A DNA stretch of 35,661 nt from a virus, in the IMG/VR virus record IMGVR_UViG_3300025237_000010, positions 1-35,661 of that record; one strand, written 5' to 3'. The notes beneath the pieces were generated by a model that saw nothing but the letters and a program-made list of their open reading frames with translations, searched no databases and was not told the origin of the DNA. Shown one piece after another: positions 28,739 through 30,365 of this stretch. The position numbers were made by a program, and so were the translations under genes. How positions within the stretch are numbered: the first letter of the stretch is position 1; each line of letters opens with the position of its first letter.

Positions 28739-29382
28739 TTATTGAAATATATCTAGCTGCGCGGTTTCTTTGTCAAAACGTGCTTGTGCCGCTTTATAAT
28801 AATCAGCGTCTAATTCACAACCTACAAACTTAAAACCGCCGTAGTGCGCTGCAATAGCGCTTGAGCCGCTTCCTAAGTGCGTATCAAGTATCTTGTCGCC
28901 TTCTTTGGCGTAGTTGGCTAATAGCCATTCATAGAGCTTAACGGGCTTTTGTGTTGGGTGTATGCGTAATTCTTTTTTTTCATATCACCCTGCAGCATTC
29001 CAGACCACATAAACTTAAACTTTCTAACTGCAGACTTAAAGCTTGTATAAGCTAGCTCACAATCAGCAAAATCACTGCCTCCGGTTAATTTGTCCCAAAC
29101 TATCCAGCAAGGCGAGCCAAGATGCAAGTTTTGCATAAAGTGATTAGCGCCCCATATTATTTGATTTTTACTAACTCGCTGCAGTTCAATAAAATATTCA
29201 GGGCTTGGCGCTGACTTATCCCAATTCTTTTTTAAATAGTTATTAGTTTTTACTCTATTCCTTGATTCATTGCCTCCACTTTCACCTATACCATAAGGCG
29301 GATCAACTATAGCCAGCTCAAAAGCATTTTCTTCTAAGCCTTTCATATACTCCATACAATCTATATTTAAAAGCTTAATCAT
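28739..29382 (-). CDS. Beta-class DNA methyltransferase, two frames joined by a -1 shift
   Basis: The first part (29382 to about 28972) carries catalytic motif IV (DPPYGIG) and WIVWDKLTGG and FADCELAYTSF. The second part, in the -1 frame to the stop at 28739, carries ELRIHPTQKPVKLYEWLLAN and the SAM motif LDTHLGSGSSAIAAH with GGFKFVGCELDADYY. Joined, they give a 214-residue N6-adenine/N4-cytosine enzyme in normal beta-class order and length. Without a shift the product ends early at NGY and lacks SAM binding. The shift point is an A8 run with heptamer A AAA AAG. The start at 29382 has AAGGAAG upstream; an alternative ATG at 29442 also has a fair site. Confidence 0.75.
28972..28991 (-). promoter_or_regulatory. 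Putative -1 frameshift signal (slippery A AAA AAG with upstream SD)
   Basis: On the minus strand the heptamer AAAAAAG lies in the X XXY YYZ phase of the zero frame (codons AAA AAA AAG). AGGG (28988-28991) is nine bases upstream, the same arrangement as in Escherichia coli dnaX. No strong stem was found directly downstream. A sequencing or assembly loss of one A in the run would look the same. Confidence 0.5.
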
Positions 29383-29785
29383 AATGACTTCCTTTGCTTT
29401 AAGTATAAGGGGTCTATGATAGGGTCTGATGACCTTAGCCATTCAACCTACCTTGTATTATTATCGTATCAGCACATTAATCAATTCTTATCAGCGAATA
29501 GTTTATCGTCTTACCGGACGCCTTCCCTAATAAAAGAAATTTCTGTCATATGGTCGCTGTTTAATGCAATCAGTTGAGATACATACCGATTACATGCTCC
29601 CCTATTCATCCGTATGCCGTAGCATAGTTTGCCTTAAAAGGTTTCCCTTGTCTGGCTAGAGCAATTAATTAACGGTCGCGTGGCGTAATTTGCCATTTAA
29701 GATTTAAAGGTTTCAGGTAGGTTTCGTTTTGTTCGGTGTAAACCTGTACTGCTTCGAAGGAACCGAGCAGCAAAACGGGGGATAA

Positions 29786-29950
29786 GCTGTATTGAAAAGA
29801 GTGCTGGTTAGCTTGATAGGAGACTTTTACGGGGTTGAGAATGCGCTAACAATTCTTCCCACCTATCCAACAGCATTTATATCTGGTACTGCTAATCAAG
29901 CTTTGAGCCTTATAGCAGCTTTCAATAAACTTTACTCTTATCAATACAGC
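29786..29950. other. Three-way-junction domain with 16-bp closing stem
   Basis: Closing stem: 29786-29801 pairs with 29935-29950 in 15 of 16 positions. Arm 1 is 29802-29875 (TGCTG, GATAGG, GGG and GAGAAT pair in order with ATTCTT, CCC, CCTATC and CAGCA). Arm 2 is 29889-29918 (CTGCTA/TAGCAG plus AAG/CTT). The arms abut the closing stem, as in a folded RNA domain. Confidence 0.7.
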
Positions 29951-30028
29951 CTATGGGCTTTAGAAAGGTTGTGTCCGCGCTATCCCATTTCTGGCAGTTG
30001 CGGCCTGTAATTCTCACTTATCAGACAC

Positions 30029-30120
30029 AAAAAAGGGCTATTTAATAACAAGCCCAGTTGGTAAAGGCAGTTTAGGGGCTTGTAATTCCGAGCCTCTGAA
30101 CCTGTTATTGAATAACCCTT
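30029..30120 (-). other. Long bipartite hairpin followed by a T6 run
   Basis: Outer stem: 30033-30049 pairs with 30104-30120 (one mismatch, one G-U). Inner stem: 30068-30082 pairs with 30089-30103 (about 15 pairs with one bulge, loop TAATTC). Read on the minus strand the outer stem runs straight into TTTTTT (30034-30029). It could end the 30662-30198 transcript or be the first domain of the structured RNA. A D-arm-like stretch (30053-30068) is present, but no tRNA fold. Confidence 0.6.
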
Positions 30121-30170
30121 ACAAACCTCAAACTTTCTAAAGACGTTACCACGCGCCTTACTACAACTAC

Positions 30171-30176
30171 ATTATA
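30171..30176 (-). promoter_or_regulatory. Consensus -10 element before the structured RNA
   Basis: TATAAT on the minus strand. The -35 region 17 bases upstream (AACACA) matches only at ACA. The start would be near 30164, about 45 bases before the first long stem. Confidence 0.45.
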
Positions 30177-30197
30177 CTACAGCTAAATAATAATGTG

Positions 30198-30365
30198 TTA
30201 TTTATCTACTGGCTTAACGGTAACTTTAATAATATCAAAATACTTTTTACATTTAGCCCACTCTTCACCGGCTGCTTGGATTGCTATTTTTTTACATTCT
30301 TGCTGTGTTCGTTCAACAGTCCATAAAGTGCTGGCGTTGTATAATGCCCAATATTGTTTTTTCAT
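30198..30365 (-). CDS. Hypothetical protein, 55 residues
   Basis: Third gene of the ribbon-helix-helix operon. Product begins MKKQYWALYNASTLWTVERT, then QQECKKIAIQAAGEEWAKCK and a beta end (FDIIKVTVKP). A compact alpha/beta protein of unknown family. AGGTGAT precedes the ATG by about five bases, an excellent site. It lies 7 bases after the preceding stop. Confidence 0.6.
   Translation of the reverse strand: MKKQYWALYNASTLWTVERTQQECKKIAIQAAGEEWAKCKKYFDIIKVTVKPVDK

Follow-up and report, generated by a model that had tools for sequence, protein, structure and literature searches.

The window, that is, the whole stretch of 35,661 nucleotides analysed, is a linear virus record of 35.7 kb that carries Sf6/P22-like terminase, portal, and capsid genes. 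A gap at positions 29443-30197 separates a DNA methyltransferase gene from small early genes, and the absence of a credible gene on either strand of this gap, already pointed out in the initial annotation, was borne out. The minus strand of the gap reached a folding energy of -218 kcal/mol (z -4.33), which none of 20 shuffles matched, compared to a plus-strand fold no better than its shuffles (z -1.26), indicating that the RNA is encoded on the minus strand, where it spans about 700 nt from approximately 30164 to 29450, possibly to 29400. The interval first proposed (29443-30197) stood as the gap but not as the limit of the conserved region, as sequence kept in relatives continues beyond the left edge to approximately 29404. 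This conservation made the ATG at 29442 an unlikely start for the methylase, a better one being 29380, behind AAAGGAAG. The methyltransferase frame that follows the RNA (28918-29442) stops early near a T run and is longer in relatives, reflecting either gene disruption or a misassembly. The features of the element, in 5' to 3' order, are:

30171-30176, minus strand: perfect -10 box TATAAT seen in the sequence, 12 nt upstream of P0
30141-30158, minus strand: P0 hairpin AGGCG-CGUGGUAA-CGUCU, its loop holding P1a (30146-30152)
30133-30142, minus strand: P6a, CUUUAGAAAG, seen in the sequence as complementary to P6b
30119-30127, minus strand: P2a, GGUUUGUAA
30101-30118, minus strand: P3a, GGGUUAUUCAAUAACAGG, 5' arm of a long stem
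30077-30085, minus strand: P2b, UUACAAGCC, within the P3 loop, from comparative pairing tests
30057-30064, minus strand: P1b, UUACCAAC, pairing with the P0 loop as pseudoknot P1, with one bulge in the window member
30029-30052, minus strand: terminator-like 3' arm, comprising P3b CUUGUUAUUAAAUAGCCC (30035-30052) and a run of six U (30029-30034)
29971-30028, minus strand: P5 hairpin, GUGUCUG/CGGACAC
29958-29967, minus strand: P6b, CUUUCUAAAG, seen in the sequence
29782-29954, minus strand: P7 long stem, AUAGGCUGUAUUGAUAAGAGU/ACUCUUUUCAAUACAGCUUAU, with an exchangeable apex, found in many members
29404-29775, minus strand: 3' domain of type A
29718-29752, minus strand: core of the type A 3' domain, GCAGUACAGGUUUACACCGAACAAAACGAAACCUA
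29662-29673 with 29476-29487, minus strand: long-range stem within the type A 3' domain

The family occurs in many marine phages, those of Vibrio and Pseudoalteromonas among them: about 24 contigs of environmental phages share the architecture, as do 18 phages cultured on Vibrio or Pseudoalteromonas, nearly always in unannotated gaps; in the cultured phages the element usually lies in several hundred bases where only tRNAs are annotated. A search of phage DNA using the window's own RNA gave no match, and the one contig with a 20-base stretch in common with the window was an identical copy of it; divergent relatives provided the way in. The loci L084 and L087 were reached via the neighbouring replication protein and proved 96% and 65% identical to the window over portions of the RNA, while loci located via the recombination protein included no homologue. 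Two DNA patterns derived from these sequences added some 20 virus contigs, BLAST searches with the environmental contigs led to the cultured Vibrio and Pseudoalteromonas phages, and one further pattern added four loci (L152-L155). A gapped-pattern scan of one genome per species (84,980 species) returned five hits that were rejected as ordinary terminators or unrelated sequences, and no member was detected in a sample of 369 gammaproteobacterial genomes searched under stricter filters and without a positive control.

A covariance model (R1) was built from eight members including the window, which scored 146.6 bits as part of the training set. Outside the training set, R1 gave 38.9 bits for L084, 51-52 bits for L152-L155, and 26.6 to 70.5 bits for 14 of the 18 cultured phages. 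The low scores included BS5 (29.9 bits), Pq0 (26.6 bits), 1.131.O (20.1 bits), and HS5 (14 bits), and R1 found no match in 1.177.O or 199E37-1. Unrelated terminators reached up to 30.1 bits under R1, overlapping the weakest members at 26-30 bits, such that membership below about 33 bits or without an R1 match rests on how the element is laid out and on resemblance in its other parts.

Among the membership features tested was a sigma-70 -10 box immediately 5' of P0, which the window has in the perfect minus-strand TATAAT remarked upon initially. An exact TATAAT occurred no more than 13 nt from P0 in 20 of 36 members (0.47 expected). The predicted transcript start in the window is approximately 30164 on the minus strand; a consensus promoter scan of the window found no -35 element for this box. 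Separately, the sequence CACATTATTATTTAGCTGTAGTATA was observed at window 30171-30207, L084 8870-8895, and L088 5650-5680, where it precedes different genes as well as the RNA and resembles a repeated promoter cassette.

The 5' domain in the window also met the membership layout of pairing between the P0 loop and the P3 loop (P1), a crossing P2, and P3 followed by a U-run. P1 and P2 both cross P3, since their downstream strands P1b and P2b are located in its loop; P1b comes first in one subtype and P2b in that of the window. The GC-rich base of P3 is followed by approximately six U in nearly every member, the run being lost in HS5. The constancy of the U-run and of GUGYCUG in the pattern-found set is by construction, because both belong to one search pattern, a bias that does not affect the BLAST-found phages.

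The helices were evaluated by comparing the best stem formed with a member's own partner region to those formed with the partner regions of other members, using 26 members less than 85% alike. Pairing with the own partner won for P1 (z 5.4), P2 (z 9.7), and P3 (z 12.2), with 0 of 20000 permutations reaching the observed value in each case, and the outcome was the same for P5 and P7 (0/20000 each). In a pseudoknotted alignment of ten members 98.2% of cells were paired and 12 pairs had changed on both sides; P0, P1 (seven pairs, three compensatory), and P2 were paired in 100% of cells and P3 in 96%. The covariation score of this alignment was reached by 0 of 500 shuffles and pairing dropped to about half when the structure was slid. 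A separate eight-member alignment agreed with it, including 94.6% of cells paired in P0 and two of its five pairs changed on both sides. Covariation in P6 was scant because the helix is near-invariant in close relatives. The sequences are kin and the domain starts were picked by eye; the covarying RNA structure is well demonstrated. Compensatory changes among the relatives gave strong support to the proposal of a large, multi-domain structured RNA. Three of the four stem systems drawn in the initial annotation were confirmed by comparison, as P3 with pseudoknot strands in its loop (30033-30120), P5 (29969-30030), and P7 (29786-29950), and the fourth (29725-29777) was partly conserved, its CGUUUUG/CAAAACG clamp being absent from relatives.

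Downstream of the U-run, P5 is usually a stem of at least 7 bp or is replaced by real tRNAs: its position is the acceptor stem of tRNA-Val in L112 and holds tRNA arrays in Seahorse, H2, and 1.085.O. The P7 apex position carries a tRNA or tRNA-like unit in L100, L111 (read from the sequence), and L117 (Rfam match). In total, ARAGORN placed one to three tRNAs within the element at nine loci and none outside it in the stretches scanned at the same loci. These comprised environmental loci (L106 Arg, L112 Val, L120 Leu, and L100 with an odd anticodon), cultured phages with single tRNAs (1.110.O Met and 1.240.O Arg), and cultured phages with arrays (Seahorse Trp/Arg/Gly, H2 Met/Arg, and 1.085.O Trp/Arg). 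No tRNA was found in the window, where the P7 apex is a GAGUAAA...ACUCUU unit also present in L101, L114, and L119; the L101 copy retains the flanks that enclose the tRNA in L100. The unit embedded in L100 (2184-2283) scored 37.8 bits with the Rfam tRNA model, and its swollen anticodon arm together with the lack of an amino acid assignment by ARAGORN raised the possibility of a tRNA mimic. After P5 in L107, L114, L115, and L118, the plug-in stems TATATGTGGTG...CCCTTCATATA and GATGAGAGTAAA...CAGCACTCTCTTC recur and can stand in succession, like interchangeable arms.

Several unlike 3' domains follow a common 5' domain among the members. In the type A domain of the window, 20 of 80 pairs had compensatory changes, a count based on five sequences of which two are nearly alike in this region. 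A short conserved reading frame in the core (GGTTTACACCGAACAAAACGAAACC) was considered and rejected, as a 2-base shift in L100 breaks the frame, which then ends at once. In L140 (Vibrio phage BT-1011) the 5' domain alone is left, leading into an incomplete tRNA and on to a gene, the 3' domain having been lost.

GOLLD and ROOL rank with the largest structured RNAs of bacteria and phages; both form cages, and to our knowledge no function has been assigned to either. The GOLLD (RF02032; E <= 10) and ROOL (RF03087) models had no match in 13 genomes, although no record known to carry GOLLD was included as a positive control and no positive control matched for ROOL. No Rfam 15 family, including introns, riboswitches, and tmRNA, was reached at the gathering score apart from the embedded tRNAs, and matches of the window at gathering and relaxed thresholds were chance hits. 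No earlier description of the RNA family was found in the literature searched, most subscription journals being outside its scope. Among member, remote relative, and new class, the possibilities raised initially, the lack of a match to either model made a new class the best fit, and the element appears from these searches to be a previously uncatalogued class of large phage RNA belonging to neither GOLLD nor ROOL.

The element resembles GOLLD as a large, highly structured phage RNA with variable modules and with a linker, able to hold tRNAs, between two structured parts. Carriage of tRNAs in the linker, as in GOLLD (PMC12286853), was examined and observed in the new family, and these insertions together with the phage setting suit a GOLLD-like mode of working. 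In contrast, the 3' region of GOLLD is universally conserved and its 5' region less so (PMC12286853), the reverse of the shared 5' and varying 3' domains described here. Similarities to ROOL include a size of about 600-700 nt, carriage by phages, association with tRNAs, and pseudoknots, but the tRNAs lie inside the new element and beside ROOL. Vibrio phage ICP1 lacks tRNAs and encodes an approximately 800-nt ncRNA between gp139 and gp140 that is its most abundant phage transcript (PMC7567579). It too is large and lies where a Vibrio phage genome has no ORF, but it was rejected as a family member as R1 had no match in the ICP1 stretch.

The favoured interpretation, to which a probability of roughly 0.55 is assigned, is that the minus strand encodes a structured noncoding RNA of about 700 nt from a new phage RNA family, acting as a trans scaffold of the GOLLD/ROOL kind with tRNA slots. 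The RNA would be transcribed by the host RNA polymerase during infection and fold into a compact, perhaps multimeric scaffold acting in trans like GOLLD and ROOL, with a linker carrying tRNAs or tRNA-shaped units that might be freed by RNase P and RNase Z. As the tRNA sites in the window hold non-tRNA hairpins, the RNA there would be scaffold only. Transcription is inferred from the promoter box alone in the absence of transcript data, and a function as either a tRNA-carrying scaffold or a regulated leader is also inferred, without an experimental structure or multimer. The varied first downstream gene is as expected for a free-standing RNA. In 9 of 35 members it encodes a DNA methyltransferase, from one or another of three dissimilar classes, and in three of 35 a calcineurin-like phosphoesterase; HNH and unknown genes also occur downstream.

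Further points against the favoured interpretation are that the U-run could stop transcription at approximately 135 nt, that the methyltransferase directly downstream in the nine members would also be explained by a cis-acting leader, and that R1 scores of the weakest members overlap those of ordinary terminators. Such a 5' leader, the main rival, in which a P3-U6 attenuator tuned by the P1 and P2 pseudoknots controls the downstream genes (the DNA methyltransferase in the window), or which is an antiterminating RNA of the HK022 put kind, is unlikely without being readily dismissed. It is favoured by the GC-rich P3 base with its U-run and by an element that always reads into a same-strand gene, but the mixture of downstream genes and the location in the middle of late operons in Pq0 and H105/1 speak against it, and the hundreds of nucleotides of structured RNA with covarying stems beyond the U-run are too much for a simple attenuator. 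The confinement of tRNAs to the element at nine loci and the mostly acceptor-like P5, with a true tRNA in L112, would also suit a tRNA precursor in which the tRNA slot is shielded and displayed by the 5' and 3' domains and which RNase P cleaves after the U-run; this is improbable, many members including the window keeping the whole scaffold without a recognizable tRNA. A replication origin with the stems as DNA elements, the alternative named in the initial annotation, is favoured by the replication and recombination genes and the switch point of coding strand and GC skew near the element, but was left very improbable by a search that found no iterons, by widely differing neighbour genes between phages, and by helices that keep G-U pairs and compensatory changes, such that base pairing and not sequence alone is conserved.

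For the preferred trans-acting scaffold, a more extended and only tentative proposal is a giant RNA widespread in marine phages that forms an RNA-only particle, bears tRNAs on exchangeable arms, and has a pseudoknotted 5' domain that is also a controllable terminator. A tRNA-in-the-middle plan without covariance-model kinship to GOLLD or ROOL suggested that the design either had more than one origin or is very ancient, and that tRNA handling may be central to GOLLD/ROOL-like designs. The presence of members in cultured Vibrio and Pseudoalteromonas phages makes expression, deletion, and structure directly testable.

A second gene-free stretch was observed in L088 (6540-6709), upstream of a replication gene, with strong inverted repeats (TAGCCCCTTTGG...CAAGGGGGCTA) that possibly represent a second small structured RNA.
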